Shown here one piece after another: positions 4,488 through 30,566 of a DNA stretch of 31,301 nt. How positions within the stretch are numbered: the stretch's first letter is position 1; every line of letters starts with the position of its first letter. Source of the DNA: a virus; the IMG/VR virus record IMGVR_UViG_3300012202_000008, positions 1-31,301 of that record. One strand, written 5' to 3'. A model generated the notes under the pieces. The model did not search any database, was not told where the DNA came from, and saw only the letters and a program-made list of their open reading frames with translations. Made by a program: the position numbers and the translations under genes.

Positions 4488-7046
4488 CTACCCAAGGACG
4501 TCGTCGCCATCTAGCTGGCTTTGGTCGAGGGTGAAGATCGCTATCCTCACCTTTCTCGGTCCGATTGCCGTCAGCGTGACCCGCTGTTGCGGGTAGCTCA
4601 CCTCCAACAGCCTAGCAGCACCAGCCGTCACCGTCACGCGGCTTTGCGGGTAGGTGATGTAGTTCGGGTCGAGCCGGGCCAGGATTGGCGGCGGGACGAA
4701 AACGTAAATCGCATCCGTCCCCTGGTGCCCGACCATGATGGAGCCGGCACGCTCGAACCTAGGATGCGGCGGCTGGTAGGGTGGAATCTCCCAACCCATG
4801 TTGAACCACCTGATGAACCGCGCCTGGATGCCCTCGTCGCCGCGGACCACCGCCCCGAACTTCTCTGCCCGCGGATGAGAAGGTTGGAACGGTGCGATTT
4901 CCCAGCCCGCGTTGAACCAACGCATGAACGGGGACTGGATGCCGTCGTCGCCCTTGAAGATGGCCGCGGCCCTACGCTCTGGCGTTGGATGACGCGGTTG
5001 GAACGGCGAGATTTCCCAGGCAATTGTCGGAGGTGTGACAAAGATGTACTTGGCTTCGATGCCTGCCTCCCATGGCATGATGGCCGCGGCCTTCTCGGGG
5101 CGTGGATGGGGAGGCTGGAAGGGAGCGATCTCCCATCCGGAGTTGAACCAGCGAATCAACGGGAACTGGGTGCCTTCGTCGCCGCGCGCCAGAGCGCTCC
5201 ATCGTTCGGGTCGCGGGTGCGGCGGCTGCCAGGACTGGACCTCCCACGCGTCCGTGACGAACGGCGGAGGAACGAACTTGGCCTCGATCCCAGGCTCGTT
5301 TGTGATGACAGGTGCACCTCTCTCCGGGCGCGGATGAGGCGGCTGGAACGGAGGCAACTCCCAACCATAGGGCAGGAAGTCGAAGAACGCGAAGTCGCTG
5401 GTGCCCTCGATGCCGAAGTAGCGGGTTGATGTCTTCTGCCTGAGATGTGGCGCAGGGACGTCCCATCCCCATTTGAACGGCGGCACGAAGACATACTGCG
5501 CCTCGATGCCAGGCTCCCAGGGCATGATGGCACCCGCCCGCTCGGGTCGGGGATGAGAGGGTTGGAATGGCGGGATGATCCAGTTGTAGGGGATGAAATT
5601 GATGAGGGAGGCTTGCGTGCCCTGGTCGCCAATCTCCGGGTTGACGCGGCGCTGGTATCTGACGAACGGGGCCGCGATATCCCAGCCCCAGACGATCGTG
5701 ACAGGCACGTACTGAGCTTCGATGCCGGCCTCCGACGGCATGGTCGCGCCCGCCTTCTCGGGCCGCGGGTGCGGAGGCTGGAATGACGGGATCTCCCAGC
5801 CGGAATTCACCCACGGTGCATAAATCGCGGAAGTGCTTCTTCCCTTGATGCCGAAGTATTTCTGCTTGGTCGACGGGGAAGCCGGCGGTTGGAACGATTG
5901 TACTTCCCAGCCCCAGATGATCACCGTCGGAACGAACACCGCCTCGATCCCAGATTCCGACGGCATGATCATGGCCGCCCTTTCTGGCCTCGGGTGCGAC
6001 GGCTGGAATGGTGGGATATGCCAGTTGAAGTTGATCCTCCTGATGAATGGGAACTGGATGCCCTGGTCGCCGATGTCGGGGTTCTTGAAAACCTGATCCC
6101 GCGTCAGAGGTGGCGGAATCTCCCACCCATATGGCTGGAATGCGAAGGGCGGCGTCTCGATGCTGCCGAACGTCTTGAGGGCGCCAGACTTGGTCCGGTA
6201 CGATATGGCCGGAGGCTGGAACGGCTGGAAATTCCATCCCCAGTTCGTGGGCGCTGGCGGTACGAACTGCGCCTCGATGCCTGGTTCGCTGGTCGCGATC
6301 GCGCCTGCCCTCTCCGGTCGCGGGTGCGGGGATTGGAACGACGGTATGTCCCAGCCATAGTTGATCCAGGTCGAGAAGATCGGGAACTGGCTGCTGCCCT
6401 TGAGGCCGGCCAGGTTCGATCCACGATATCGCAGGTGCGTGAACGGTGCGTCTAGGAAGGTCGCTGGTGGGACGAAGACGTACTGGGCCTCTATCCCTGC
6501 CTCGGACGGCATGAACGCACCAGCGGCCTCCGGGCGAGGATGGCGGGGCTGTATGGGGGCAATCTCCCACCCGTAAGGAAAGAACCTGATGAACGGCGCG
6601 TAGATGCCCTCGTCGCCTTTTATCAGGCCGCCGAAACGTCCATCGGGTTGCGGCGGGTGGGGCGGCTGGAACGGGTGCGTGTCCCAATCGTTCGGAAGGA
6701 ACCTGATGAAGCGCGCTTGAATACCTTCGTCGCCCCGCATGATCGCGCCGGCCCCAGGTTTCGGCCGATATGGTGGTTGGGGCGGATGCGTGTCCCAATC
6801 ATTGGGGAAAAAGCGAATGAACCGCGCCTCGGTGCCCTGGTTGCCGACCATGATGGCAGCAGCACGTTCGTGGCGCCGGCGCGGCGGCTGGAACGGCTGA
6901 ATCTCCCACCCCATAGGAAGCAGATTGGAGATTACGGCAAAACCACCCCTACCTCTCACGGCGGCACGTCTCTGGCTGACCGTGCGGTTGAACGGAGGAG
7001 GCTGGAATGGTGGGATCGCCCATCCCAAATCCGAAGCAGCCATCAT
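4488..7046 (-). CDS. Giant Trp/Pro-rich repeat protein (about 20 units)
   Basis: This 852-residue protein is built almost wholly from repeats of about 37 residues. Each begins with G/N/A-W-E/D-I/V-x-P-F-Q-P-P (for example GWEIAPFQPPHPRPEKAA) and continues into a second half of one of two types: GDEGIQARFIRWF or SEAGIEAQYVFVPP. I count 20 Trp-bearing units plus one degenerate unit. Several units (near the eighth, twelfth and fourteenth) use a variant first half such as GWDIAAPFVRYQ. The last 65 residues hold two YPQ-S/Q-RVTxTA repeats and a strand RVRIAIF-like tail. No enzymatic motif is seen. It lies between paralogous beta proteins and a tailspike, so a fibre, spacer or receptor-binding role is likely but unproven. 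ATG at 7043 is an equally good start. Confidence 0.8.
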   Translation of the reverse strand: MMAASDLGWAIPPFQPPPFNRTVSQRRAAVRGRGGFAVISNLLPMGWEIQPFQPPRRRHERAAAIMVGNQGTEARFIRFFPNDWDTHPPQPPYRPKPGAGAIMRGDEGIQARFIRFLPNDWDTHPFQPPHPPQPDGRFGGLIKGDEGIYAPFIRFFPYGWEIAPIQPRHPRPEAAGAFMPSEAGIEAQYVFVPPATFLDAPFTHLRYRGSNLAGLKGSSQFPIFSTWINYGWDIPSFQSPHPRPERAGAIATSEPGIEAQFVPPAPTNWGWNFQPFQPPAISYRTKSGALKTFGSIETPPFAFQPYGWEIPPPLTRDQVFKNPDIGDQGIQFPFIRRINFNWHIPPFQPSHPRPERAAMIMPSESGIEAVFVPTVIIWGWEVQSFQPPASPSTKQKYFGIKGRSTSAIYAPWVNSGWEIPSFQPPHPRPEKAGATMPSEAGIEAQYVPVTIVWGWDIAAPFVRYQRRVNPEIGDQGTQASLINFIPYNWIIPPFQPSHPRPERAGAIMPWEPGIEAQYVFVPPFKWGWDVPAPHLRQKTSTRYFGIEGTSDFAFFDFLPYGWELPPFQPPHPRPERGAPVITNEPGIEAKFVPPPFVTDAWEVQSWQPPHPRPERWSALARGDEGTQFPLIRWFNSGWEIAPFQPPHPRPEKAAAIMPWEAGIEAKYIFVTPPTIAWEISPFQPRHPTPERRAAAIFKGDDGIQSPFMRWFNAGWEIAPFQPSHPRAEKFGAVVRGDEGIQARFIRWFNMGWEIPPYQPPHPRFERAGSIMVGHQGTDAIYVFVPPPILARLDPNYITYPQSRVTVTAGAARLLEVSYPQQRVTLTAIGPRKVRIAIFTLDQSQLDGDDVLG

Positions 7047-13686: not shown

Positions 13687-13832
13687 TGCCTTCATCCTCC
13701 TGGTGGCGGCCTTCAGATAAATCTTGTTATCAGACATCTTCGAGCACACTACGCACCGATCATTTGATGCGTAGCGCTCGGCAACGTGACCGTGACGGCA
13801 CGGATTCCCGGTGAAATATCGCTTTCCCCTCA
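13687..13832 (-). other. In-frame zinc-knuckle module upstream of the exported protein
   Basis: Between the stop of the glycosyltransferase fusion gene and the start of the exported protein, the exported protein's frame stays open and encodes RYFTGNPCRHGHVAERYASN followed by DRCVVCSK. This CxHGH...CxxC pattern is familiar from N-termini of phage HNH-type endonucleases. No ATG or TTG start precedes it; a GTG at 13878 inside the upstream gene would give a 292-residue membrane protein with a cytoplasmic zinc module. It may be a real N-terminal extension, a separate tiny protein, or a remnant of a lost homing endonuclease. Confidence 0.45.
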
Positions 13833-16244
13833 GACCGCGCTCAGGTCGTTTGCGACCCTCCTCACCAACTCGTCCCACTCGCCGACCTTCTGCTGCCTGT
13901 AAATCTTGACGCTAGGATACCACGGGCTGCGCTCGTTCCAAGGTGAGCCGGGACGCTCGGCCATCCAGTGCCACGACCCTGGCTCGGCCGAGTTCAGCAG
14001 CCATACGGGCTTGCCCATCGCGCCGGCGAGATGCACTACCGCCGTGTCAACAGAGATGACCAAGTCGAGGTTGGCGACCAACGCCGCAGTATCGTCCCAG
14101 GACGGTTTTTCTGGGAGAACATCCTCTGCCAATCTGTTTTGCGTGCGTTCTGGGCCAACTTGAAGCGATATGAAATCAAACCCATCTACATCAAGGAGCG
14201 GTTTCAGATCGTCGAAGTGCATCGACTTGCGCTTGCCATACCTCGCGATCCATAGTCCCTCACGGATGCCGGACGACCAGCACAATCCAACGCTCCGACA
14301 TCGTTCGCTCAACGGAAGACTTCTGCAGTACTTGGCAACGAGGTCAGGATCGGCGTGCAGGTACGGCCCGAACGACGGCACGGTGTCGACCTCCGTCCCG
14401 AACACGTGCGGGAGTTCGCCGATCGGGATGTGATAGTCGAACGCCTCGATGCCGATCGCGCCCGGATAGTCTATGGCCTGCGGGACCACCTTGACTCCTG
14501 GGAAGCTGCGCTGCATCAGGGACAGCATGTTCTCGTAGGCCTCGTAGCGAACGTCGTAGCCATCGTCGACCATCAGCTGGAGGTACCGCGCGCAACAAAG
14601 GTTGTCTCCGAACCCGGCCTCTGCGTGGACGTGGATGCGCGCCGGAGATTTCAGGTTCACGCAATCGTCGTTGCTCAGCGCTGGCTCACCGTTCCACATC
14701 GGCGAATCGAAGCGATTGACCGGCACGTACAGCGGCAGTTGTGTGCGCTCCACGGACCTCCAGGTGTGTTCCTTCCAGCCCTCTCTGTAGCGGCCCAGAG
14801 CGTGCAGCGACAGACTCTTGTTCCAGTGGCACGTCGCCGGCTCGCTGACGCCGGCCTCCAGGGCCTCGTCATAGAGCGCTATCGCGTCCTCGTGCCGCCC
14901 CTCGCGGTAGGCGGTGAAGGCCAGGGTCAGCGTCGCGTCACCATGGGCGGTGGGCGGTTCTTTGGTGAAGCGGACCTCGTGTGCCAGCCTCTCGGCTTCG
15001 GCGTAGACCTCTTTCGTCGGCTCGTCGTCGAACAGCGCCGAGATCATGTCCAACTTAGGTTCAACTGCGTCCGGGTCGACCTCCATAGCGCGCCGGAAGG
15101 CGGCCTTCGCCTCCTCCAGTTTCTCCGACCAGAGGTAGAGGCCGCCGAGCATGCGCCACGCATGAACGTTGTCAGGCTCGATGCGCGTCGCCACGATGGC
15201 CTCGTTGATCGCCCGGTCCCAGTGCCGCATCGGCCGCAATGTCTGCCCCACCATCTCCAGGATATACTCGACGGCGTCCGGGACACACTTGATCGCTTCC
15301 TGGTACCAGTCGAACGCCGTCCCCAGCTTCTTCTGGCTGGCCGCGATCTTCGCGAAGAAAAAACATGCCTCCCCGCGGGCGACGCGCTGCGCCGTGGTCT
15401 CTGGATTCTTCGTGATCGTGTAGATCAAGCGGAAGAGGTTGTTGGCGTCCAGGACGCGGCCGGCGTGGTAGTACCCGCTGGCCTGCGCCAGCAGATCCTT
15501 GAGGTTGACCGTATCGCTCGGGACGGGGGTCACCTCGACGGACGACACCATCCCAACCCAGCCAGCCTGGTAATGCTGGAACATCTGCTCGGCACCTACC
15601 TCCGCGGCATACCTCGCGACCAACCCACCCTTGCCGCCGACCTCGATGTAGGGGCAGTTCTCTAGGACGATCGGGGCGTCGTCGACCGCAACGAGCGTGT
15701 CCGGCCGCAGGATCGGCAACGCCGCCAGCAGTTCGTCGAGGTGGTGCTTCTGGGCCATAAGCGTCGCAGCCCAGTTCAGGTTCGATGCGTCGAGGTAGAG
15801 CAGGTCGATCGGAACGGAAGAAACATCGGCCGCCGCCTTCAGGTATTGAACGCTGTCGCCGCAGTGGATGTACGAGGAACCACATACCGCTCCCCTGCAC
15901 AAGTCGACGGAGGAGGCATCCGTGTCCACGGATTCGAACGATGACCCGGGATGTGTCCTCACGTACTTGTCGAACAGCAGCGTCGAGCACCCGTTGCCGC
16001 CCCAGCCATCATCGTTGAACCTCTCCGCGCAACCGGTCTCGACGATCAGCACTGGCCGGTCGAACCGGTCGAGGTGCTCGAACATCATGCGGAAGGTGTC
16101 GGCGCGGGTGTGATACGACGGGACGGGCCACGACTTGAGCCGCGGGATCGCGTGCTCCTCGTACCACTTCCAGAAATCTACGGAGTACCCTGGGCCACGA
16201 ACGGGTTGGGTCGTTCGTTTGTCATCGTGGGCGGTTCCATGCAT
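13830..16244 (-). CDS. Methyltransferase-TPR-glycosyltransferase fusion
   Basis: This 804-residue protein has three parts. About residues 50-230 look like a class I SAM-dependent methyltransferase: LIVETGCAERFNDDGWGGNG (motif I region), then VDTDASS, DLLYLDAS and VAVDDAPIV. About residues 250-480 form TPR-like helical pairs (HAWRMLGGLYLWSEKLEEAK, AFTAYREGRHEDAIALYDEA). About residues 500-804 match TPR-linked glycosyltransferases related to heptosyltransferase family 9: HVHAEAGFGDNL, SVGLCWSSG and LDLVISVDTAVVHLAGAMGK. Together they suggest synthesis or capping of a methylated glycan on a virion protein or host surface. Substrates cannot be read from sequence. The start lies inside the preceding gene (67-base overlap), and the ribosome site is moderate. 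Confidence 0.75.
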   Translation of the reverse strand: MHGTAHDDKRTTQPVRGPGYSVDFWKWYEEHAIPRLKSWPVPSYHTRADTFRMMFEHLDRFDRPVLIVETGCAERFNDDGWGGNGCSTLLFDKYVRTHPGSSFESVDTDASSVDLCRGAVCGSSYIHCGDSVQYLKAAADVSSVPIDLLYLDASNLNWAATLMAQKHHLDELLAALPILRPDTLVAVDDAPIVLENCPYIEVGGKGGLVARYAAEVGAEQMFQHYQAGWVGMVSSVEVTPVPSDTVNLKDLLAQASGYYHAGRVLDANNLFRLIYTITKNPETTAQRVARGEACFFFAKIAASQKKLGTAFDWYQEAIKCVPDAVEYILEMVGQTLRPMRHWDRAINEAIVATRIEPDNVHAWRMLGGLYLWSEKLEEAKAAFRRAMEVDPDAVEPKLDMISALFDDEPTKEVYAEAERLAHEVRFTKEPPTAHGDATLTLAFTAYREGRHEDAIALYDEALEAGVSEPATCHWNKSLSLHALGRYREGWKEHTWRSVERTQLPLYVPVNRFDSPMWNGEPALSNDDCVNLKSPARIHVHAEAGFGDNLCCARYLQLMVDDGYDVRYEAYENMLSLMQRSFPGVKVVPQAIDYPGAIGIEAFDYHIPIGELPHVFGTEVDTVPSFGPYLHADPDLVAKYCRSLPLSERCRSVGLCWSSGIREGLWIARYGKRKSMHFDDLKPLLDVDGFDFISLQVGPERTQNRLAEDVLPEKPSWDDTAALVANLDLVISVDTAVVHLAGAMGKPVWLLNSAEPGSWHWMAERPGSPWNERSPWYPSVKIYRQQKVGEWDELVRRVANDLSAV

Positions 16245-16618
16245 GGCGGTTCCGTTTCCTTTGGGTGGAGGCGGGTCCGCTCTTCGCCGATGTAGCCGTC
16301 GTCATAGAAGCGCACCCGAGACGTGCCGTAGCATCGATAACACATGCCGGCCTCTGGAGTGCTACCGCGCCCGCCACAGTCTGGGCAAGGCCGGTATTCG
16401 AAATTCTGCCATGGCGCGCCGTCTTTCTGCGTGACGGTGACGTGGATCTCGCCGAGGGAATGGGCGTTGCAGCCGAACTCCGGCGGGGTCTCGATGTTCA
16501 GCGCCTGGCACTGACCCTTCCCAGGAGCTGAGGTGGGTGTGAATATCTCAGACCCGTCGCTGTAGACGGTTTTCTTGCCCATGATCCAGTGGACGCAGTT
16601 GAAGCAATGGCCAGTCAC
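16178..16618 (-). CDS. Cys-rich zinc protein with DnaJ-like CxxCGGxG module
   Basis: This 146-residue protein has two Cys clusters. The first 60 residues hold CFNCVHW, CQAL and CNAH. Residues near 78-100 read CPDCGGRGSTPEAGMCYRCY, like one repeat pair of the DnaJ zinc domain (CxxCGGxG...CxxCxG). The GTG start overlaps the FkbM gene stop as GTGA, with GGAG upstream. The last 20 residues overlap the start of the glycosyltransferase fusion. It probably binds one or two zinc ions and acts as a small adaptor or chaperone-like protein; the target is unknown. Confidence 0.65.
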   Translation of the reverse strand: MTGHCFNCVHWIMGKKTVYSDGSEIFTPTSAPGKGQCQALNIETPPEFGCNAHSLGEIHVTVTQKDGAPWQNFEYRPCPDCGGRGSTPEAGMCYRCYGTSRVRFYDDGYIGEERTRLHPKETEPPCMEPPTMTNERPNPFVAQGTP

Positions 16619-17370
16619 GCTGCTTTCTCCATAGCCTTCAATGGTTCCATGATCACGTTCATACCATCAAAGACTCGGCAAGCGTAGCCATCACCGACAG
16701 CGGCAGCATAATCGTCTATGGCAAAGTTGTTTTCAGCCACGATGACAGGATAGCACCTTTCGATCGTCTCCCTGGCACCTTTAAGAACATCCAATTCCAT
16801 CCCCTGAACATCGATCTTGATAAAGTCGAGACGTGGCAACTTGAAATCGTCAATTGCTGCGGCGGTAATCTCGACCTCGCCAACGGACGGAGGTTGATCG
16901 TACCTGCCCCATCCGTTCAAAGATAACCCACCGAAGTTAGCCGGCTTTTGATGGTCAACTATCGGCACGACCATGATGCCGGATTGGGCGGCTGCCGCAG
17001 CCCACATCGCCCTCGCATTGAAGCAGTTGTTCATGGTGATGTTGCCGCACAGAGCATAATAAATGCGCTCTTGGGCCTCTATTGCGTAGACTTCTCCCCA
17101 CCCGTGCATTCTGATTGCCCACGCGATGGTATGGGTTCCTATGTTGGCACCAACGTCGAGAACAACCACGCCGTCGCCAAATTTCTCGCGTCTCGAACGA
17201 ATAACGTCGAAACAATCATCTATTTCCTGTCGAAAATATTCACCAGTCTCCATAAGATCGACGCCAACACCACGCCATCCATCACCGTTTGGGCGACGGA
17301 AATAATCGTAACGGTTGGCAAGCATCGGTCCAAAGTGGGTAGCGGTGATGACGAATGGATTGCGCTTCAC
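16615..17370 (-). CDS. FkbM-family SAM-dependent methyltransferase
   Basis: This 251-residue protein has motif I VLDVGANIGTHT near residues 70-81, an acidic residue in YAIEAQ near residue 98, and the FkbM-typical IKIDVQGMELDVLKGA near residue 185. The family O-methylates sugars or related hydroxyl groups. Its GTG start overlaps the previous stop as GTGA and is served by AGAGG, so it is coupled to the small gene upstream. It lies in the same operon as a glycosyltransferase fusion and a DUF115-like protein, so glycan methylation is the most likely role. The DNA looks A/T-richer than its neighbours, suggesting transfer. Confidence 0.85.
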   Translation of the reverse strand: MKRNPFVITATHFGPMLANRYDYFRRPNGDGWRGVGVDLMETGEYFRQEIDDCFDVIRSRREKFGDGVVVLDVGANIGTHTIAWAIRMHGWGEVYAIEAQERIYYALCGNITMNNCFNARAMWAAAAAQSGIMVVPIVDHQKPANFGGLSLNGWGRYDQPPSVGEVEITAAAIDDFKLPRLDFIKIDVQGMELDVLKGARETIERCYPVIVAENNFAIDDYAAAVGDGYACRVFDGMNVIMEPLKAMEKAA

Positions 17371-20558: not shown

Positions 20559-21575
20559 TCAGACCGTCGTGATGGCTGACCAGAAGAACCCGAGGTCGGC
20601 CCCGACCACCTGCATGTCGAACGCCATCTCGGCCTCGTTGCGGATCGTCCCGAGCCCCAGCCAGTTCATCGGGATCTGCGACACGCGGATGCCAAGCGAG
20701 TTCAGGCCGGTGAACGCCTGCCAGCCGAAGGTGTAGCCGCTCGACGGGATCATCAGCCCGGGCTGGCCCGGCACATAGAGCAGCAGCGCGTTCTTGCCGG
20801 CGACGAACGCCATCGACGCGCTCAGGTTCTCGGCCGCGGTGTTGTAGACGGCCTTCGACACCACGATGCGGTCGATCGCGAACGCCTGTGCGAGGAGCTG
20901 CGGCGTGATGGTCCCGGCGAACGCGGGGTTCGTGTACTTTATGCGGTCGATCACCAGCGGGTGCTTGCGCAGCGCCTGGTAGACGTTCCACGAGATCAGG
21001 AACACGTTCGGCAGGAAGCCGGTGTTCGTCAGGATCGTCGTCTGCCCGAACGCGATGTCGGTGAACGGGTCCGAGTTCGCGTCGTCGTCCCAGAACACGG
21101 GAGAGAACGTCCCGGGGGTGCCGAGCGCCGCGGTGGTGCCGGTGGCGTCACCGCCTCCCAGCGTGTTCCAGACGCCCGTGATCATGTACTTCGACATGAA
21201 GAATCTATCACGGCGTATCATCAATTTTTGCATCAACTGCCTAGTGCTCACTACGTCGATATCGATCGCCGGATCCTGGTTGGCGCGGACCTGCGGACCG
21301 ACGTCCTGATGCAATGCCCAAACTTTGGCGCTGTAGGTCTGCGTCGTCAGGTTGACGCCGGTGCCCGCCGACTCCGACGCGTCGGCGCGGACCTGCGCCT
21401 CGTCGCGGAAAAAATCAGCCTTCGACCAGACGAAATACACATCCGTCTGGTGCTGGACCGGCACCATCGGAAACACCTTGTCCGCAACGTAGTTGTCGTC
21501 GCTCTGGAAGTAGGCGACCGCGATTTGTGTCAGCGCCGCTGCCACATGAACATCGCCGAAGGTCGGCTGGGGTAT
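20559..21575 (-). CDS. Major capsid protein, probable ATA start
   Basis: The family-consistent N-terminus PQPTFGDVHVAAALTQIAVA is encoded from position 21572. The codon before it is ATA at 21575, with TAGGAGG and a five-base spacer upstream. There is no ATG, GTG or TTG between the in-frame stop at 21587 and GTG at 21545, and using that GTG would delete the conserved T-F-x-D-V-H-V segment. Downstream, VADKVFPMVPVQHQTDVYFV, KVWALHQDVGPQVRAN and MIRRDRFFMSKYMITGVWNT match an HK97-fold phage capsid family. The 338-residue product forms the icosahedral shell. The start codon call is inferred from family knowledge plus the ribosome site. Confidence 0.9.
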   Translation of the reverse strand: MPQPTFGDVHVAAALTQIAVAYFQSDDNYVADKVFPMVPVQHQTDVYFVWSKADFFRDEAQVRADASESAGTGVNLTTQTYSAKVWALHQDVGPQVRANQDPAIDIDVVSTRQLMQKLMIRRDRFFMSKYMITGVWNTLGGGDATGTTAALGTPGTFSPVFWDDDANSDPFTDIAFGQTTILTNTGFLPNVFLISWNVYQALRKHPLVIDRIKYTNPAFAGTITPQLLAQAFAIDRIVVSKAVYNTAAENLSASMAFVAGKNALLLYVPGQPGLMIPSSGYTFGWQAFTGLNSLGIRVSQIPMNWLGLGTIRNEAEMAFDMQVVGADLGFFWSAITTV

Positions 21576-21599: not shown

Positions 21600-21692
21600 A
21601 ACAGCACGCTGGACGCGGCTTTCTCGTGTTGCGCTGTTGCCTACGTGAACATTCTGTGCGTAGGCTTTGGTGGACAGGACAGGAGAACAACC

Positions 21693-22301
21693 ATGCCAAG
21701 CCGGGTCAGAGTTGATCGCGAGCCTATTTTCAAAATGCTCGATGAGACTGAGGGGAACATCCCTGAGACAGCGAGACGTCTCGGACTGCATGTGAACACC
21801 ATTCGTCACATCAGTCGGGTGCGGAAAGGACTCTGCGCACGGTGTGAACGCCCATCTCAACCGGGACTGACCAAATGCAAGAATTGCGCGCAATGGGAAC
21901 GCAAACGCATTGCCGACAGTCGAGCGCGCTCCCGCAAACTTGGCAAGTGCTCGATGTGCCCAAAGAAGTTGCGCAAGGGATCGACGCTGTACTGTGAGGA
22001 ACACTACCAGCAAACGTTCAAACGCCAGCGAGTATTTCGCATCCTCGACAGACATGGACCAGAGGCGCTTGAGTTCCTCAACGCGACAGAGGATCGATGC
22101 CAAGCTTGCGGCGTAACCCGCGCTGAAAAGCGCATCGATCTTCACCATATCGACGGGGATCATGGGAACGATCATCCCACGAATTTCGCCGTCATATGTG
22201 TCGACTGCCACTGGATTGCTCATCGTCTGCTTCTATCGCGCGACCGTAAGGCGCTGATCTCCTGGTTCGAGAAAACATATCCTGCGCACGTTCTCCGTTA
22301 G
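21693..22301 (+). CDS. HNH homing endonuclease with HTH and zinc fingers
   Basis: This 202-residue protein starts with ATG at 21693 behind AGGAG. Order of parts: a helix-turn-helix near residues 18-40 (GNIPETARRLGLHVNTIRHI), a zinc finger CARCERPSQPGLTKCKNC, a second Cys/His finger CSMCPKKLRKGSTLYCEEH, and a C-terminal HNH nuclease with CQACG near residue 136, DLHHIDGDHGN, then VICVDCHWIAH. It is encoded on the strand opposite to all head genes and sits between decoration and capsid genes, so it is a free-standing mobile endonuclease rather than part of the structural operon. Its stop overlaps the decoration gene stop tail to tail. Confidence 0.9.
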   Translation: MPSRVRVDREPIFKMLDETEGNIPETARRLGLHVNTIRHISRVRKGLCARCERPSQPGLTKCKNCAQWERKRIADSRARSRKLGKCSMCPKKLRKGSTLYCEEHYQQTFKRQRVFRILDRHGPEALEFLNATEDRCQACGVTRAEKRIDLHHIDGDHGNDHPTNFAVICVDCHWIAHRLLLSRDRKALISWFEKTYPAHVLR

Positions 22302-22926: not shown

Positions 22927-24342
22927 TCAGGCGGCGTGGGACCGGCCGTGGATCTTGGCCATGCGCGCGTCGGCCTCGGCCTGGCGCAGCTTGACGTTGG
23001 CCGGATCGTTGTAGGCCTTGTCGAACGCCTGGGCCTCGGTGAGGGACGGGTCCTTCTCGCGCAGCGCCTTGGCCATCGTGGTGATGGAGTCCATCGCGGT
23101 GGCACCTTCGCCCTCCGGCGAGCCTGTATGTCCGAGTTCATCGAACGCGCGGCTGGACTTCTCGAACGCCTTCTTGGACTTCGCCAACTCGGCGACCATG
23201 CCCTCGTACTTCTTGATCGCGTCCTTGTCGCCGCGGCGCATCTTCATCAGCACCTCGCCGGCGTCGGTCTGGGTGAACCCGGAGTCCTTCGCGTCCTGCT
23301 TGGCGATCTTGAGGTCGCGCTCGTCGTCCATGGCGTCGAGGCGCTTCTTCAGATCTGCGTTCTCGGCCATCAAACCCTTGACGATCGGATCGTCGGACAG
23401 ACGCTTTTTCGTCTTGTCCATCTCGCCGTCGCGCGCATCGGGCGACATGTCACGGAACTTCTTCTTGTCCGCGTCCGACCCCAGGTTGTCGTGGTAGGTC
23501 TTCTGGGCGTCGCTCATCTTCGAGACGACGAGGTCGTCGAGGAGTTTGTTGATCTTCTCCTCGCTGGAAGCGGTGGCGGCGGCGACTGCCTTGGCGACCG
23601 CCTCATCCATCATTTTCTGAACCTGCGGGCTGAGAGCGGGAGTGGTCATGTCGTCGTCCCTCTTGCTGGTGTCGTCGTCGTCCGCGTCGTCCTCAAGGCC
23701 GAGGCTGGCGATGTGATCCTTGAACTGGTTGTAGCTGGTGGTGATCGACGGGACCTTGTCGGTGATAGCCTCGTCGCAAAGGATGGACTGTATCGAGCAA
23801 TCGAGAGCGCACATCGCGTCGCGGACGGCGCACATGAGTTCCGACGCGTCCTCTGCCGTCTCCATGGCGTCTGCCATGTCGCTGAAGTCCTTCGCCGCCT
23901 TGCACACCCTGGCGAAGGCGTTGCGCTCGGCGATCAACTCCACGTCGGCTTTGGTGAGTTTCTTGCTCCAGGAGTCCGGCAGCATATCTGACGCGCCGAG
24001 CGCAGAAGCGCGCGCCTTGATGTGCGCCTTAGCCTTCGCCGGATTCTTCGCGCGGCCGATCGCCTGGATGGCGTTGCCGAGGTCTTCCTTGGTCTTGATC
24101 GGATAGGACCCATCAGGCAACGCGGCCCCACTGTCCGCGGCCGACTGACGCTCCTTGCCGCTGAACTCGCGCTTCAGATACTCCGCCACTTCCTCGGAAA
24201 GGTCCGCGATCTCGTCAGGCCCCATGGACTCGTACAACGAAGGCATGTTGCGCTTCGTGAGGACCACCTTGACGCCGCGGCCAGCGCCGACATCAACCGA
24301 TGATACGTCATCGATTCGTAAATTTCTCAGAACGCGTGCCAT
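22927..24342 (-). CDS. Scaffold-like capsid assembly protein with DUF6582-like region
   Basis: This 471-residue protein begins MARVLRNLRIDDVSSVDVGA then GRGVKVVLTKR, a common opening of capsid-assembly proteins. Residues 74-125 (ALPDGSYPIKTKEDLGNAIQ...) match the DUF6582 pattern. An acidic stretch (residues 217-231) leads to a long coiled coil (about 330-410) and a helical C-terminus, typical of scaffolding proteins. ATG at 23649 (residue 232, MTTPALSPQVQKMM) is preceded by AGAGG nine bases away, so a nested shorter scaffold may also be made. It is the first head gene after the GIY-YIG insertion. Its own upstream site is weak. Confidence 0.75.
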   Translation of the reverse strand: MARVLRNLRIDDVSSVDVGAGRGVKVVLTKRNMPSLYESMGPDEIADLSEEVAEYLKREFSGKERQSAADSGAALPDGSYPIKTKEDLGNAIQAIGRAKNPAKAKAHIKARASALGASDMLPDSWSKKLTKADVELIAERNAFARVCKAAKDFSDMADAMETAEDASELMCAVRDAMCALDCSIQSILCDEAITDKVPSITTSYNQFKDHIASLGLEDDADDDDTSKRDDDMTTPALSPQVQKMMDEAVAKAVAAATASSEEKINKLLDDLVVSKMSDAQKTYHDNLGSDADKKKFRDMSPDARDGEMDKTKKRLSDDPIVKGLMAENADLKKRLDAMDDERDLKIAKQDAKDSGFTQTDAGEVLMKMRRGDKDAIKKYEGMVAELAKSKKAFEKSSRAFDELGHTGSPEGEGATAMDSITTMAKALREKDPSLTEAQAFDKAYNDPANVKLRQAEADARMAKIHGRSHAA

Positions 24343-24416
24343 TCATGGGATTTATCACTGGGCTGTTTCACTGTATATTCATGAGTGCGCGCGCAATATG
24401 AAGGGGAGTCAGCAGG

Positions 24417-25223
24417 TTGAAAGCATCAGGACCGCCATATGGACTTGTATACAAAATCACGTGTCTGGTTTCAGGGAAAAGCTACATTGGAGTGACGATA
24501 CGGAAGTTGAAAAGACGCTGGCAAGCGCACCTTCTGAGTGTCGGAAATGGGAAGGGTCATGCCATACACGCTGCGATCGCTAAGTACGGTAAAAACCAGT
24601 TCGTCATCGAAGAGGTCGCCTGTGCCATCGACAGGAACTCGCTCATGATCGCAGAACGGGAAATTATCTCCCAAGAAAATACGATCTCTCCTAACGGTTA
24701 CAATTTGACTGCCGGCGGTGAAGGAATGTTTGCACCAAGCGCTGAAACGAGACTCAAAAAGCGCAACGCTCTACTTGGGAAAAAGCAATCTTTAGAACTA
24801 ATCGAGAAACGTATTGCTTCTCGACGAGGACAGCCAAGAGACCGCGCTGCTGTGGAACAAAGTAGACTTAAGCAATTAGGAACAAAACGCAAAAGCTGGG
24901 GCAGACATACCCAGGAATCCATTCTTAAGATGAAAGAAAAATGCAAGGGTAGGAGACCCAGTCCCGCAACAACTCAAGCCGCCATTGCTGCTCTTACAGG
25001 CAGGCCACAAAGCATCGATTCTAAAATCAAGCGAAGCGTGTCCCTGAAAGCTTTCTACGCCAGCAATGAGGGAAAGGCGCTTGCTACACTAAGAGCATCA
25101 CAAAACAAGGGTCGGGTCGTCTCTTCCGAGACTAGCCTGAAAATAAGCCGAGCACTGCGAGGGAAAGTTAAACGCATTCGTGGAAAGTGCTCAAGCAGTC
25201 CAGCCCAACTTTCTCTATGGTAA
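24417..25223 (+). CDS. GIY-YIG homing endonuclease with NUMOD-like DNA-binding repeats
   Basis: This 268-residue protein starts at a TTG with GGGGAG upstream. The nuclease core runs over about residues 8-95: GLVYKITCLVSGKSYIGVT (the GIY and YIG elements), the Arg-bearing KLKRRWQAH and the Glu of IAEREIIS. Residues after about 100 are Lys/Arg-rich with repeated NUMOD3-like segments (KKRNALLGKKQSLELIEK, IKRSVSLKAFYASNEGKAL, SLKISRALRGKVKRIRGK). Such proteins cut specific sites and promote their own spread. It lies opposite to the head genes and looks A/T-richer than its neighbours, so it is a later insertion. It overlaps the next gene by 7 bases. Confidence 0.9.
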   Translation: MKASGPPYGLVYKITCLVSGKSYIGVTIRKLKRRWQAHLLSVGNGKGHAIHAAIAKYGKNQFVIEEVACAIDRNSLMIAEREIISQENTISPNGYNLTAGGEGMFAPSAETRLKKRNALLGKKQSLELIEKRIASRRGQPRDRAAVEQSRLKQLGTKRKSWGRHTQESILKMKEKCKGRRPSPATTQAAIAALTGRPQSIDSKIKRSVSLKAFYASNEGKALATLRASQNKGRVVSSETSLKISRALRGKVKRIRGKCSSSPAQLSLW

Positions 25224-25570
25224 ACGTCATGTCCCACGCGATGAAAGACTACCGGCAGCGCCGGGGGTACTCTGGAAGCAACGGGAGAATCCCTACCATA
25301 TCGCTCAAGGTCGGCAGCATCATGCTTACGGAGCGGGACAAGAAGCACTGGGGCTGGGAGATCGCCAAGCGGGTCGGGACGTCGCCCACCTCGGTATCTC
25401 AGATATTCCGCAGCTTCGAGCGCCGGGGCTGGGTCCGGTGCCACCATGAGAAAGTTAACGCCGCCACGGAATACAGGCCACCCAGGGTTCTATATGACCT
25501 CACCGCTGACGGCGTCGTCGCGATCCGCGACGCACTCATTCCGTTCCAGCATGCGCCGGTGTCAACTTAG
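25217..25570 (+). CDS. Winged-helix DNA-binding protein (PadR/MarR-like)
   Basis: This 117-residue protein contains IMLTERDKKHWGWEIAKRVG then TSPTSVSQIFRSFERRGWVR, a clear helix-turn-helix. It continues with YRPPRVLYDLTADGVVAIRD, the beta wing and C-terminal helix of PadR/MarR-type regulators. ATG at 25217 overlaps the GIY-YIG stop, so the two genes are co-transcribed; later Met codons are possible starts. Its stop TAG lies within the first of a set of 18-bp repeats. It could regulate the inserted cassette or host or phage genes; the target is unknown. Confidence 0.75.
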   Translation: MVNVMSHAMKDYRQRRGYSGSNGRIPTISLKVGSIMLTERDKKHWGWEIAKRVGTSPTSVSQIFRSFERRGWVRCHHEKVNAATEYRPPRVLYDLTADGVVAIRDALIPFQHAPVST

Positions 25571-25584
25571 TCGGCGGCTCGCTG
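25567..25584. repeat. 18-bp direct repeat, copy 1
   Basis: TTAGTCGGCGGCTCGCTG is found here and identically at 25863-25880. A diverged third copy lies at 26025-26040. Copies 1 and 2 bracket the 80-residue gene. Copy 1 includes the stop of the winged-helix gene. Confidence 0.8.
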
Positions 25585-25604
25585 ACGAGCGCTTGTCGAA
25601 CCAC

Positions 25605-25626
25605 AAGCCTACCGTGAGGTAGGCTT
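25605..25626. terminator. Hairpin between convergent genes
   Basis: AAGCCTACC-GTGA-GGTAGGCTT is a perfect 9-bp stem with a 4-base loop. It lies between the convergent winged-helix gene and the 80-residue gene and spans the latter's stop codon. No U-tract follows on either strand, so it is a weak bidirectional terminator or an mRNA end-protecting hairpin. Confidence 0.45.
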
Positions 25627-25851
25627 CCGAAGGTCCGCCCTTTCAACATAAACGCTGGTGACGTGGCCTTCGGGATTGATCGTAATCTCGATATCAACAC
25701 CACCCGCGTGCATCTCTAGATGGAGGCCGCCATCAGAACAGGGAACAGGCGTCATATTGTCGGCCGTATCGATGGCCGCTGACGTGATGGCCTTGCTTTT
25801 AGGCCCATGCCAGCCGTCGGCAAGGGCTTTGAGTTCTTCCAGGGTTGACAT
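25609..25851 (-). CDS. Small acidic protein of a widespread unknown family
   Basis: This 80-residue protein begins MSTLEELKALADGWHGPKSK. It has a pattern seen in many small bacterial proteins: L-x-x-L-x-D-G-W-x-G, then a helix, then PVPCSDGGLHLEMHAGGVDI and EITINPEGHV. ATG at 25851 is preferred because AAGGAAGG precedes it; the frame extends to 25986. The gene is bracketed by exact 18-bp repeats. Function is not known; the family often occurs in mobile or plasmid-like contexts. Confidence 0.7.
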   Translation of the reverse strand: MSTLEELKALADGWHGPKSKAITSAAIDTADNMTPVPCSDGGLHLEMHAGGVDIEITINPEGHVTSVYVERADLRKPTSR

Positions 25852-25862
25852 TGCACCTTCCT

Positions 25863-25880
25863 TTAGTCGGCGGCTCGCTG
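25863..25880. repeat. 18-bp direct repeat, copy 2
   Basis: This is an identical copy of TTAGTCGGCGGCTCGCTG. Read on the minus strand, its end abuts the ribosome site (AAGGAAGG) of the 80-residue gene. Confidence 0.8.
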
Positions 25881-26024
25881 CAAAGCCTAGAACATGGGCC
25901 ACCTTCCCAGCGACATTTGGCACGCTTCTCTGCCGATGGCGGAAGGCCAGCGCCATCATCACAAGCGCAGCTCGGCACGCGTTCAAAGGGTAGATTGCAT
26001 TCTTCCACGTATCACTTCTCTTTC

Positions 26025-26040
26025 AGTCAGCAGCTCGCTG
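26025..26040. repeat. Diverged direct repeat, copy 3
   Basis: AGTCAGCAGCTCGCTG matches copies 1 and 2 over 16 bases with two mismatches. It lies about 160 bases from copy 2. Confidence 0.5.
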
Positions 26041-26204
26041 CCCGAATCGTGCATGGGCGAGGCGTGTTAGATCATCCGGCAGCCATCTGTTCGGTCTGTT
26101 TGGTCCGGACCACACCGCACCGCTGGCGTTTGGCCCCCTATCGAAAGGGCGTTACGTGAGGCGCGCGCCGCCTCATGCCTCTCCACACCACTGCGCCCAT
26201 ACAC

Positions 26205-26218
26205 GAAGTCTAGACTTC
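26205..26218. promoter_or_regulatory. Perfect 14-bp palindrome
   Basis: GAAGTCTAGACTTC is a perfect inverted repeat with no spacer in an intergenic stretch. It could be an operator for a dimeric regulator such as the nearby winged-helix protein, but no promoter elements could be placed with confidence. Confidence 0.35.
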
Positions 26219-26528
26219 AGTCGGCGATGGCCACTCTCACCACGGCGGATGAGAGCAGTCCGCGAGCGAGCCGCCTAGCTTTAGTTCCTCGCGGGCCGGG
26301 CGCTGATCCGGCTCGGCATGCCTGGGCGCCACCTTTCGGTCGCAACGCTTACAAACTCCGACGCTCTGTTAACGCTGCGTGGCTACACGCTTCCGCGAGA
26401 ATAGCCACCGGCGTGCCGGAGGCTAAGAAAAACAGGCGACGATTTCAACACGCCGCCTGAAAGTCAATTGCTTCGATCTGGACGGACGCAGTGTCCGTAC
26501 AGTACTGCCAGCTATAGCATTTGAGATG

Positions 26529-26568
26529 CCAAAATCAAATCGGGCCTCCAGTGTGGCGGGAGGCCCGA
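26529..26568 (-). terminator. Rho-independent-like terminator after the polyprotein gene
   Basis: On the minus strand TCGGGCCTCC pairs perfectly with GGAGGCCCGA (10 bp, 9-base loop), followed by ATTTGATTTT. It is about 90 bases downstream of the prohead protease polyprotein stop. It probably ends that transcript and separates it from the accessory stretch and head genes. The 26569-26655 spacer holds nothing else convincing. Confidence 0.75.
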
Positions 26569-26655
26569 CTTCGCTCTCTGAGAGGGGATCTCTGAGATGT
26601 TGCAATTCAGGGAGGAATTCCAACCTGGTCACGCTGTCACGTCCTTGCCATGAGG

Positions 26656-29643
26656 TCAAGCGTCGACTGTTTCCCGCCTCGCCTTCCCGCCGATGGAGAA
26701 CTCCGGCAACTCGCCAGCCTTGATGCGCTTCCATACTCCTGGATCATCCACGCGAAAACCGATCCACCATCCTGTGAGTCCAAGATCGACGCCTAGCGCC
26801 TCCTGCTTCTGCTTCGTGAACATCATGGACTCGACCAGCCGGCCAACGCCCATTCGCTCGTGCATGTCGCCCTGCTGGCGGCAGTAGAGGGCGAAGTCGT
26901 AGGCGGCCTTCTCCAGCTCGTCCTCCGGGATGATGTCGTCCTGCTTGTCCACAACATCCTCGCCACCGATCGAGCAAATCGACGCCCAGCCGAACACGAG
27001 CTGCTGGTCCTCGTCGGTCTTCCGGACGTCGAACTCGATCTCCATGTCGGGTGCCTTGTTCACGGGTTCGCCCTTGCTGCCTTGATTTTCATCGGTGTGG
27101 ACGCGCGGATCGTAATCCTCGATATCGAGGTACTTGACCGTGACCGTCTTGACGCCGCTGAGCTTCGCGGCCGTCAACCTGTGGTGTCCGTCGACGATGC
27201 AGTAGCGCCCCGGGCCAATGCGCACCACAACAGGGCGCTTCTCCGTGGCGCCCTCGATCATCGACTGTATTTTCCCCGGGTCGACCCGGTCCTGGACGGC
27301 TGACAGCATGGATAACGGGATCTCCCGCTCCTCCAGCGAATCCTGGTCCGTCAGCGCCGCCAGCACCCGCTCCTTCTGATCGTTGCGCAGATCGGAGAAG
27401 AAATACTGGTCGTACGGGAACGGCGACCTCGCGTTCTGGTCGTCCAACGGGATGAGCTGGAGCGATACGTTGACCTGGTCCGTTGGCTTGGCGATGGACG
27501 ACGTGCTACCCCCCAGTTTGGCCAGTTCCGCATCGAGGAACTCGTGGACGCCGTCCGACTCCAGCCATGTCTTGCGCATCCAACCGTCCTTGGTCTTGCT
27601 CCATCCGTTCTTGACGGCGGTCCATGCCTGCCGGATAGCAGATTTTTCGGACTGCCCCGCCTTGATGCGGTCGTTCGCCACCTTCCTCCAGACGGTCTGC
27701 GCCTCCTGCGGCAGGACGTTCCTGACGCCGTCCGGGAGTTCGGCGTTGCTGCCCAACACCTTGCCGACTTTCGCCTCTCCATGGTCTTCCTTGGCGCTCC
27801 TGAGGGCATTCTGGAGTTCGTCGGTGCTGAATTCCATTTCCACGAAGTCGCCGGGGTCCTCGCCAGCCTTCATGAACTTTTTGGCGTCGACCGTCCCGTC
27901 CGGACGCATCGCCGCGAACAGGCGCTCGTTGCGATGATGGGAAACAACCAGCATCTTCTTCTTGCCCGCCTTCTTGATGTGGCTCAGCATCGCCTGCGCG
28001 GCGCGCGCCTTGAACGTGTTGAACGACTCGCCGCCGTCCACCATCTCGTCCGGGTTCTCGACGTGCTCCAAAATACCGTCATGGGCCTCGTCCGTCGTCT
28101 GCCCGGTGAACTTGCCGAGGTTCCACGGCCGCATTCCGTAGTCATGGATGGGTTTGATCCCAACCGCCTTGCCGACGAGCTTGGACGTCTGGATGGCGCG
28201 GCCAAGATCAGAGCTGACGATGTAGCCGATGTCCTGCTTCGCCAGTTTCTCGCCGGCCTTCTCGGCGTCCTCGATGCCCTCCGCCGTCAGCGGGACGTTG
28301 TTCCAGGATCGCACCCGGTCCTTGCTCATATCGGTCTGGTTGTTGAACCGGGTCGGGCCGTGGCGCATGAACAGCACTGAAACAGTGCGCTTGCTGAGTT
28401 CGTCCCAATCCACCTTGGCTAGAACTGCATTTCCAAGCGCGGTCACAAAGTCAATGGTCGCCGCACTGGCAAGCGCATCGGCCTTGATCTTCTCCAGCGC
28501 CTTGCCGAAATCCATGGCTGGGACCGCCATGACGCGCGCACCCTTGATCTCCCCGATGGTGGTCAGGAAGTCCTTCGCCTTGCGCTTGTTGGGAGGCTGG
28601 TTGCCTAGCGCGGTGGTCGCGTGGACATCGCCGACGGTCATGTTCTTGCCCACCCTATGGATGCCTGACGCAGACAAGTGCTGCTCGATCCTCGCCATCG
28701 CGTCCCCCGTGGCTTGGTGCAGATCGCTGAGATGTTGGTGAAGCTCGACAGCCGCCTCTGCCGCCGTCTTCTGGGCAGCCACCGCAGCACTCTCAAGCTC
28801 AGGATCCTGCTCTCCGTGGTTGTCTTGATGCTCCTGGGCCACTTCCTCAGCGTAGCTAGCCTCGGTCATGGCTTGATCGAGCGTCTGGTGGGCATCATCC
28901 ACCTTGCTGGCGTGGCCAGCTATGTCGTTACCTTCGACAGCACCGTGGATATTGGCTGCTGTGCCAGATGATATCCCGCCACCCTCCGACGTCCACATCC
29001 CCTTCGCGTCCCGCGGCTCGTCCGGACTGTACGCCTTGTGCGCGGATTGCAAGCTCTGGAGATCGTCCCGCGCCTGCTGGAGCATCCGGTGGACGCCCCA
29101 GTAGAGATCCTCGCTCTTGTCCTGGCTGTGCTCACTAAGTTGACGCTGGAGGTCGTCCACCTTTTGCTGGGCATCCTTCATCTGCTTTTCGTCGCGGGCC
29201 TGCTGGCGCTCCTCCCGGCGAAGCTCAGCATCGAGATAGGTGCTCACTGATTGGCCGCGCCGACCAGCAATCCTGCCACCGGTCCTGCCGCTTTGCCTCG
29301 TCGTACCCTGGCCAGCGCCAGACCCGGTCGTCCACTTGCCCTGGTTGTCGCGGGCCTCGTCCGGAGGGCCGTCCTTCAGCACCTCGGCGAAGGACTTAGC
29401 CTTTCCGATAGCCGCGCGCGCCCTGGCGTTGGGATCGAGGGGTTCATAGTCATCGCAGTAGCCGTGGGAAGCTATCGGAGGCGCGACGTGGGTGCACGCC
29501 GGCGGGTTGCCATCAACGAACATCGAGCAGCCGGAGCACCGCTTGTCGCCGTTGGGATGGTCCTGGTAGCCGACCTTGGCGTGGGACTTAAGCTTGCGGA
29601 CTACCTGAAGTTCTATCGCCTTCGTGAAGTTGATCGCCATCAT
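26656..29643 (-). CDS. Prohead protease polyprotein (HiPIP-like, phosphatase, ChaB, ParB, XkdF)
   Basis: This 995-residue single frame has, in order: a Cys module at residues 36-63 (CSGCSMFVDGNPPACTHV...GYC) like high-potential iron-sulfur proteins; a linker with DEARDNQGKWT (95-105); a Glu/Gln-rich coiled coil (140-320) interrupted by DEPRDAKGMWT (208-218); a histidine phosphatase with FMRHGPTRFN (425-434), SSDLGRAIQTS (477-487), DGGESF (536-541) and VVSHH (566-570); a ChaB-like helix region (635-690); a ParB-like domain (723-845, with IVDGHHRLTAAKL at 816-828); and an XkdF/S78-type prohead protease (865-990, likely catalytic His in DMHER and Ser in EFSIGG). Proteolysis at the RDxxGxWT linkers could release cargo. 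It follows where a portal gene would be. The start overlaps the preceding gene. Confidence 0.85.
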   Translation of the reverse strand: MMAINFTKAIELQVVRKLKSHAKVGYQDHPNGDKRCSGCSMFVDGNPPACTHVAPPIASHGYCDDYEPLDPNARARAAIGKAKSFAEVLKDGPPDEARDNQGKWTTGSGAGQGTTRQSGRTGGRIAGRRGQSVSTYLDAELRREERQQARDEKQMKDAQQKVDDLQRQLSEHSQDKSEDLYWGVHRMLQQARDDLQSLQSAHKAYSPDEPRDAKGMWTSEGGGISSGTAANIHGAVEGNDIAGHASKVDDAHQTLDQAMTEASYAEEVAQEHQDNHGEQDPELESAAVAAQKTAAEAAVELHQHLSDLHQATGDAMARIEQHLSASGIHRVGKNMTVGDVHATTALGNQPPNKRKAKDFLTTIGEIKGARVMAVPAMDFGKALEKIKADALASAATIDFVTALGNAVLAKVDWDELSKRTVSVLFMRHGPTRFNNQTDMSKDRVRSWNNVPLTAEGIEDAEKAGEKLAKQDIGYIVSSDLGRAIQTSKLVGKAVGIKPIHDYGMRPWNLGKFTGQTTDEAHDGILEHVENPDEMVDGGESFNTFKARAAQAMLSHIKKAGKKKMLVVSHHRNERLFAAMRPDGTVDAKKFMKAGEDPGDFVEMEFSTDELQNALRSAKEDHGEAKVGKVLGSNAELPDGVRNVLPQEAQTVWRKVANDRIKAGQSEKSAIRQAWTAVKNGWSKTKDGWMRKTWLESDGVHEFLDAELAKLGGSTSSIAKPTDQVNVSLQLIPLDDQNARSPFPYDQYFFSDLRNDQKERVLAALTDQDSLEEREIPLSMLSAVQDRVDPGKIQSMIEGATEKRPVVVRIGPGRYCIVDGHHRLTAAKLSGVKTVTVKYLDIEDYDPRVHTDENQGSKGEPVNKAPDMEIEFDVRKTDEDQQLVFGWASICSIGGEDVVDKQDDIIPEDELEKAAYDFALYCRQQGDMHERMGVGRLVESMMFTKQKQEALGVDLGLTGWWIGFRVDDPGVWKRIKAGELPEFSIGGKARRETVDA

Positions 29644-30483: not shown

Positions 30484-30566
30484 TGGACCTTGAAGGATTC
30501 GAACCAACGTTTCCGCCGGGCTCGATAGCTGGGCGACGGCGTCCTCAACCACTAGACGAAAGGCCC
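30484..30566 (-). tRNA. tRNA-like element with enlarged anticodon arm (possible pseudo-tRNA)
   Basis: Read on the minus strand, GGGCCTT pairs with AAGGTCC as a 7-bp acceptor stem, followed by TC, a Glu/Gln-like D arm GTCTAGTGGTTGAGGAC, and a T loop TTCGAAT. The anticodon arm CCGTC...GGCGG has a 17-base loop, ten more than normal, so no anticodon can be read. The T stem (GTTGG/CCTTC) has two mismatches. The total is 83 bases, no CCA encoded. It may be a decayed tRNA, an element with a small insertion, or an unusual phage tRNA. Confidence 0.45.

Follow-up and report, generated by a model that had tools for sequence, protein, structure and literature searches.

A phage prohead protease chain with apparently exchangeable N-terminal enzyme modules and a peptide resembling the major capsid N-terminus

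Why should a phage encode a histidine phosphatase, a ChaB domain and a ParB-like domain in the same reading frame as its prohead protease? The question is raised by an IMG/VR virus record from a soil phage, analysed here over a stretch of 31,301 bases that is referred to as the window. The gene, read on the minus strand from 29643 to 26656, begins with ATG and encodes 995 amino acids in a frame of 1029 codons from stop to stop, with no internal stop. From the N-terminus to the C-terminus, the product carries a HiPIP-like Cys4 domain, two coiled coils, a histidine phosphatase, a ChaB domain, a ParB-like domain and, in last position, an XkdF (S78_2) protease (Table 1). The original prediction, made from the letters alone, proposed one open frame joining these domains into a five-module polyprotein. 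The single intact gene and the modular layout stand, whereas the count is better given as seven blocks; the domain calls were upheld by Pfam, PHROG, NCBIfam and phmmer, and both the phosphatase and the XkdF protease matched above the curated Pfam cut-offs.

The full architecture also occurs in independent IMG/VR contigs (L002/L003, L004, L005 and L006), so that homologues with the same domain order do exist. Identity ranges from 63 to 86% (67% for L002/L003 and 82% for L004), and the catalytic residues are kept. The more diverged relatives L018 (861 aa) and L019 (663 aa) retain most of the architecture; ChaB was not found by Pfam in the latter. Pairwise dN/dS values span 0.01–0.33 over the folded modules, where measurable: 0.02–0.2 for the HiPIP-like domain, 0.07–0.12 for the phosphatase, 0.05–0.33 for ChaB, 0.01–0.15 for ParB and 0.06–0.31 for XkdF. 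These values are well below 1 in all folded modules, which indicates that each of them is under purifying selection. An assembly join or frameshift, which the original prediction had named as fatal to it, has a practically negligible chance of explaining the fusion, given the open frame, the contigs of other samples with an identical domain order and the low dN/dS.

Table 1. Features of the polyprotein gene and of the neighbouring head genes in the window
Feature	Position	Strand	Basis
995-aa polyprotein gene (HiPIP-like, coils, histidine phosphatase, ChaB, ParB-like, XkdF protease)	26656..29643	(-)	ORF and profile searches
HiPIP-like Cys4 domain, aa 16-66	29446..29598	(-)	phmmer, NCBIfam, alignment
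Cassette linker 1, SFAEVLKDGPPDEARDNQGKWT, aa 84-105	29329..29394	(-)	sequence comparison
Coiled coil 1, aa 134-201	29041..29244	(-)	AF2 model
Cassette linker 2, PDEPRDAKGMWT, aa 207-218	28990..29025	(-)	sequence comparison
Coiled coil 2, aa 235-325	28669..28941	(-)	AF2 model; swapped between relatives
Major-capsid-N-terminus-like motif and basic stretch, KNMTVGDVHATTALGNQPPNKRKAKDF, aa 333-359	28567..28647	(-)	PSSM, AF2 (disordered linker)
Histidine phosphatase (branch 1), aa 420-612	27808..28386	(-)	Pfam, alignment, Foldseek
ChaB domain, aa 636-691	27571..27738	(-)	Pfam
ParB/Srx-like domain, aa 735-848 (DGHHRLTAA at 818)	27100..27441	(-)	PHROG, AF2
XkdF-type (S78_2) prohead protease, aa 870-990	26674..27036	(-)	Pfam, alignment
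Scaffold-like ORF after protease	22927..24342	(-)	profile search
Major capsid protein, N-terminus IPQPTFGDVHVAAALTQ with motif common to polyprotein; start codon ATA	20559..21575	(-)	profile search, alignment

The XkdF domain scores 72.6 bits in Pfam (Peptidase_S78_2/XkdF, aa 873–990, E 4e-20) against a cut-off of 24, and its H928 (in MH) and S983 (in FSIGG) are kept in 90% or more of the homologues aligned; M927, H928, S983, G985 and G986 are nearly invariant in an alignment of 14 proteins. XkdF proteins have the assemblin fold. The ParB-like domain is matched by several PHROG ParB families (E 4e-6 to 1e-4) and, over aa 801–845, by Pfam ParBc_2 (E 0.005, under the curated cut-off), and its DGHHRLTAA supplies the GxHR-type motif of ParB/Srx-like nucleases or nucleotidases. 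ChaB is recognized by Pfam at 37.2 bits versus a cut-off of 27 (E 5e-9).

The phosphatase is matched by Pfam His_Phos_1 over aa 423–573 (E 7e-29), and in a Foldseek search its model fell among histidine phosphatases of known structure (best E 3.5e-9, target TM 0.67). RHG, R482, GES and the second His are invariant in relatives down to 44% identity; the fold, RHG, Arg and second His expected of branch 1 are thus all present. The usual LRE motif, which provides the Glu proton donor, is replaced by RPW in the polyprotein. This substitution bears on the claimed activity and leaves membership of the fold untouched; the invariant Glu of GES could act as a substitute donor, and the module is likely to be active.

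At the N-terminus, C36, C39, C50 and C63 are invariant in an alignment of seven relatives. The four Cys follow the HiPIP spacing, and the cluster resembles PioC 6xyv (phmmer E 6.5e-7) and the NCBIfam iron oxidase (Iro) model (E 9.6e-7, under that model's curated cut-off). Pfam HIPIP was not reported for the polyprotein at E values up to 1, and elsewhere in phage records the module gave just one weak Synechococcus phage match. Since the AF2 model of this module is poor (pLDDT 54), its HiPIP identity is a sequence-level call only. For the whole chain, AF2 (input alignment of 14 sequences, consisting of the window and IMG/VR locus proteins only) gave a mean pLDDT of 61.7 and separate folded blocks for the two coils, phosphatase, ChaB, ParB and XkdF. 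The stretches of low confidence between the blocks (62–133, 202–235, 325–417, 692–728 and 848–873) are probably disordered.

How such a chain may have been put together is suggested by its linkers. The two similar sequences that had been placed at module boundaries, RDNQGKWT (aa 98–105) and RDAKGMWT (aa 211–218), do lie at boundaries, but they bound the N-terminal modules only: in the window, neither separates phosphatase, ChaB, ParB and protease from one another. Both are members of a wider joint of about the form DEPRDxxGRWTxGG. In L005, whose N-terminal stretch differs and whose contig ends there, two additional copies of the joint flank an inserted second ParB_N domain, and L006 has an additional cassette after the HiPIP-like part. 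Identity is uneven along the chain. The coils are its least conserved part, and coil 2 is 22–30% identical between relatives whose adjoining phosphatase is 93–96% identical; window and L004 share 30% in coil 2 and 96% in the phosphatase, and L002 and L005 share 31% in coil 1 and 66% in coil 2. These module identities, together with the inserted cassettes, show that modules have been exchanged at the joints. L001 and L101 have the same joint, with a ParB/Srx-like cassette, in MuF, their minor head protein; at exactly that place the MuF protein of L002 has no cassette. Linkers of the DEPRDxxGRWT type thus delimit cassettes that relatives have gained, lost or exchanged, MuF included, and the two linkers of the window mark recombination joints. 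RDxxGxWT is at least a cassette joint and, as a protease cut site, putative; no known cleavage consensus was found. A tblastn search of the linker against phage records returned three weak matches, one of them in a Nocardia phage ‘capsid maturation protease’, with a query too short to gauge its spread.

The setting is that of head genes: scaffold and major capsid follow the protease, and a MuF protein lies upstream in L001. In the Rhizobium phage RHph_TM3_3_9 the scaffold-like ORF is directly joined to the protease. In the window the gap between the two (24343–26655) holds, on the opposite strand, a GIY-YIG/NUMOD3 endonuclease-type ORF (24417–25223, +) and a small winged-helix regulator (25187–25570, +). 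The corresponding gap of L002, L004 and L005 contains the regulator but not the GIY-YIG ORF. A group I/II intron or other RNA in this gap was discarded, as Rfam gave no match up to E 1. An HNH-like endonuclease-type ORF (HTH plus Cys/His; 21645–22301, +) adjoins the capsid gene. The major capsid gene itself apparently starts with ATA (21575–21573, −) behind a strong AGGAGG, a non-standard start on what should be the phage's most abundant protein; at the same place L005 has ATT, L003/L004 have GTG, and L018 and L022 have ATG. Past the window's end, the nearly identical phage L001 encodes at 1492–2559 a di-haem oxidoreductase (DHOR, E 4e-27) with CxxCH motifs, located between the minor head and polyprotein genes and unusual next to a HiPIP-like domain. 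Minus-strand genes further away include an 852-aa protein of approximately 30-aa repeats (GWEIPPFQPPHPRPERAGA...) that has no Pfam match (4488–7046) and, in the tail/late region, a methyltransferase–TPR–glycosyltransferase 9 fusion (13830–16244) and an FkbM methyltransferase (16615–17370). An Rfam tRNA match at 30484–30566 (−), also seen in L001, scores 39.6 bits, above the cut-off, and was not called by ARAGORN.

How would the chain reach the inside of the head? A candidate answer lies in the predicted disordered stretch between the coils and the phosphatase, where a motif of the pattern xPTxGDVHxxxALxN resembles the N-terminus of the phage's own major capsid protein. A PSSM built from 27 distinct capsid N-termini was applied to every ORF of 100 aa or longer in the loci retrieved. 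Scores of 10 bits or more were reached by 14 of 84 protease ORFs and, among the 2131 remaining ORFs that are not capsids, by 5; the two highest of these five come from a single phage type (L037/L038), in which they are the scaffold ORF. When the capsid of the same phage or clade was excluded, 9 of the 11 proteases tested outscored all 1000 shuffles (p at most 0.001). By eye, the motif is seen in approximately 22 related proteases, near the N-terminus in short ones. These counts and shuffle tests show that the motif is real and that internal head proteins share it with the N-terminus of the capsid protein. Co-variation of the motif with the capsid of the same phage was set aside as evidence, being weak and confounded by relatedness (12 phages, p 0.034). 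The RHph proteases are devoid of the motif, which is therefore not essential to the XkdF protease family.

Two roles come into question for the motif: docking to the shell, or processing at a site that both proteins have in common. A cleavage site common to major capsid and polyprotein would account for the occurrence of one motif in both, and for its position in the disordered stretch that separates the coils from the phosphatase; moreover, in L038 it sits in the scaffold, a usual substrate. However, the motif of the L024 protease begins at residue 2–3, where a cut would bring little gain, the capsid of Arthrobacter phage Salgado begins almost at the motif (VPEHIDALLTN), and the scaffold of the window does not contain it. 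The cut-site reading, which is compatible with the overall explanation favoured below, therefore falls short of an even chance, and the Salgado capsid and the L024 protease incline us towards a docking role. A bolder extension would be that a copied capsid N-terminal arm, with the adjacent basic stretch, docks the chain inside the growing shell. Whatever cassette was inserted at a PRDxxGRWT joint would then be carried in the head, released by the protease and injected; this scenario is rather unlikely.

Other head proteins bear comparable fusions. The same type of phosphatase is located at the C-terminus of Phage_portal_3 portals (L103, L104 and L106), and L105 encodes a free phosphatase with a C-terminal HiPIP-like Cys cluster. 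No paper on portal–histidine phosphatase fusions was found in the literature, and a scan of named genomes for prophages with the phosphatase yielded nothing but a Ligilactobacillus phosphatase that is unrelated to it. In Arthrobacter phage Salgado, gp18 has a 2H phosphoesterase N-terminal to XkdF; the gene (L093, 1592–2713) is annotated as RNA ligase, an annotation under which Salgado's XkdF protease is hidden. XkdF is further fused to a MuF domain (L031), to ChaB and DUF5824 (L077) and to TUDOR and DUF2188 (L079). Taken together, the portal, XkdF and MuF fusions suggest that head proteins repeatedly carry enzyme cargo in these phages. An uncut, late multi-enzyme protein that works in the infected cell, its protease domain serving only to anchor the chain in the head-gene operon, would agree with such a frequency of domain fusions and with cleavage being a prediction only. 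Yet the cassettes with the same linker in MuF and the phosphatase on portals are attached to structural head parts, and the conserved MH and FSIGG argue for an active protease, which leaves this alternative improbable.

Sequence comparison establishes the fusion, its conservation, the purifying selection, the cassette exchange at joints and the capsid-like peptide, and the modular layout with a C-terminal protease that had been foreseen is supported by the predicted disordered linkers, the terminal XkdF and the head-gene setting. The original prediction had not anticipated the capsid-like motif, the exchange of cassettes or the counterparts in MuF and on portals; its idea of a packaged polyprotein appears reasonable for the 995-aa chain. 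We infer entry into the procapsid, linker cutting and delivery of modules as follows. The XkdF serine protease, which is predicted to build and mature the head, would bring in the fused N-terminal HiPIP-like, coil, phosphatase, ChaB and ParB/Srx-like parts; the protease/scaffold part of the chain, together with the capsid-like peptide, would give it access to the procapsid. At maturation the protease would cut the disordered linkers; some of the freed modules, such as the phosphatase and the ParB-like domain, would stay in the head, leave with the DNA at ejection and act on host phospho-signals, nucleotides or DNA. This polyvalent prohead protease, with a C-terminal XkdF and variable N-terminal cargo that is incorporated, cut and partly delivered, has a slightly better than even chance of being the right description.

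The modules could instead be lost at maturation. The N-terminal part would then consist of propeptide-like assembly pieces, concerned with protease dosage, timing or scaffold contacts; after cleavage they would escape from the head, and the host would receive no enzyme. Propeptides usually exit the head (PMC10052503), and the mass spectrometry list of virion proteins of the distant phage KPP23 contains the major capsid but neither the homologous protease nor the scaffold (PMC4031330). Because of these observations, loss is a serious rival to delivery, and the poorly conserved coils, structural in look, would suit it. On the other hand, the phosphatase preserves its main catalytic residues (RHG, Arg and His) across 44% identity and occurs also on portals and alone, neither of which is needed for a mere spacer. 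Loss of all modules is on balance unlikely, though far from fanciful.

The occurrence of a capsid-like peptide in an enzyme-bearing protease chain suggests a way of loading enzymes into the virus head. The prohead protease gene would serve as a dock onto which interchangeable enzymes are loaded; its joints are defined by sequence, and it shares with the capsid a peptide that is a candidate for recognition of the shell. If confirmed, partial delivery of the cargo would explain how enzymes enter the host in phages without large sets of internal proteins and would provide testable cut and docking sites for the little-studied XkdF protease family. Histidine phosphatases, borne by proteases and portals, would become a class of phage-delivered effectors, perhaps directed against phosphorylated or nucleotide alarm signals.

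Phage T4 has a capsid targeting sequence, and its gp21 processes internal proteins. As in T4, a short peptide is proposed here to carry cargo into the prohead, followed by protease trimming; unlike in T4, the peptide looks like the N-terminus of the capsid protein of the phage itself, and the comparison with T4 is one of arrangement. Propeptide targeting in T4 is mentioned in PMC10052503, along with the SPN3US prohead protease, which trims head proteins that are later ejected. Phage 7-7-1 was rejected as a direct precedent, its protease being of the HK97 type.

The closest named phage protein is the ParB–XkdF protease of RHph_TM3_3_9 (EVB39_052), with 33% identity over aa 730–986. It has the same order of ParB-like domain and XkdF, with the scaffold ORF next and a related major capsid, but it is only 245 aa long and lacks the HiPIP, coils, phosphatase, ChaB and motif. 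Salgado gp18 likewise places an enzyme N-terminal to XkdF, although the cargo is a single domain and a different enzyme. The L103, L104 and L106 portals carry the same type of phosphatase on a head protein, the carrier being the portal instead of the protease.

The nearest described class is that of the polyvalent proteins, defined in 2017 by Iyer et al., in which assemblin-like peptidases are always C-terminal and probably serve virion assembly (PMC5512222). The 995-aa protein fits this class, since it combines several functionally unrelated domains with a peptidase at the C-terminus; packaging and transfer into the host are predicted. Shared traits are the many unrelated enzyme domains per chain, the head-gene setting, ParB-like domains and the C-terminal peptidase, for which a role in maturation has been proposed there. 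The original claim that no such set was known was consequently too strong, but it retains some ground, as XkdF, ChaB, phosphatase and iron-sulfur domains, and linkers too, go unmentioned in that text, and neither the capsid-N-terminus-like peptide nor the PRDxxGRWT joints were found described in it. What is new is the combination of HiPIP-like, histidine phosphatase, ChaB and ParB modules on an XkdF protease, the cassettes bounded by DEPRDxxGRWT, with the same linker and ParB-like cassette in MuF, the fusion of the same phosphatase to the portals of other phages, and the look-alike of the capsid N-terminus in the disordered linker of the protease.
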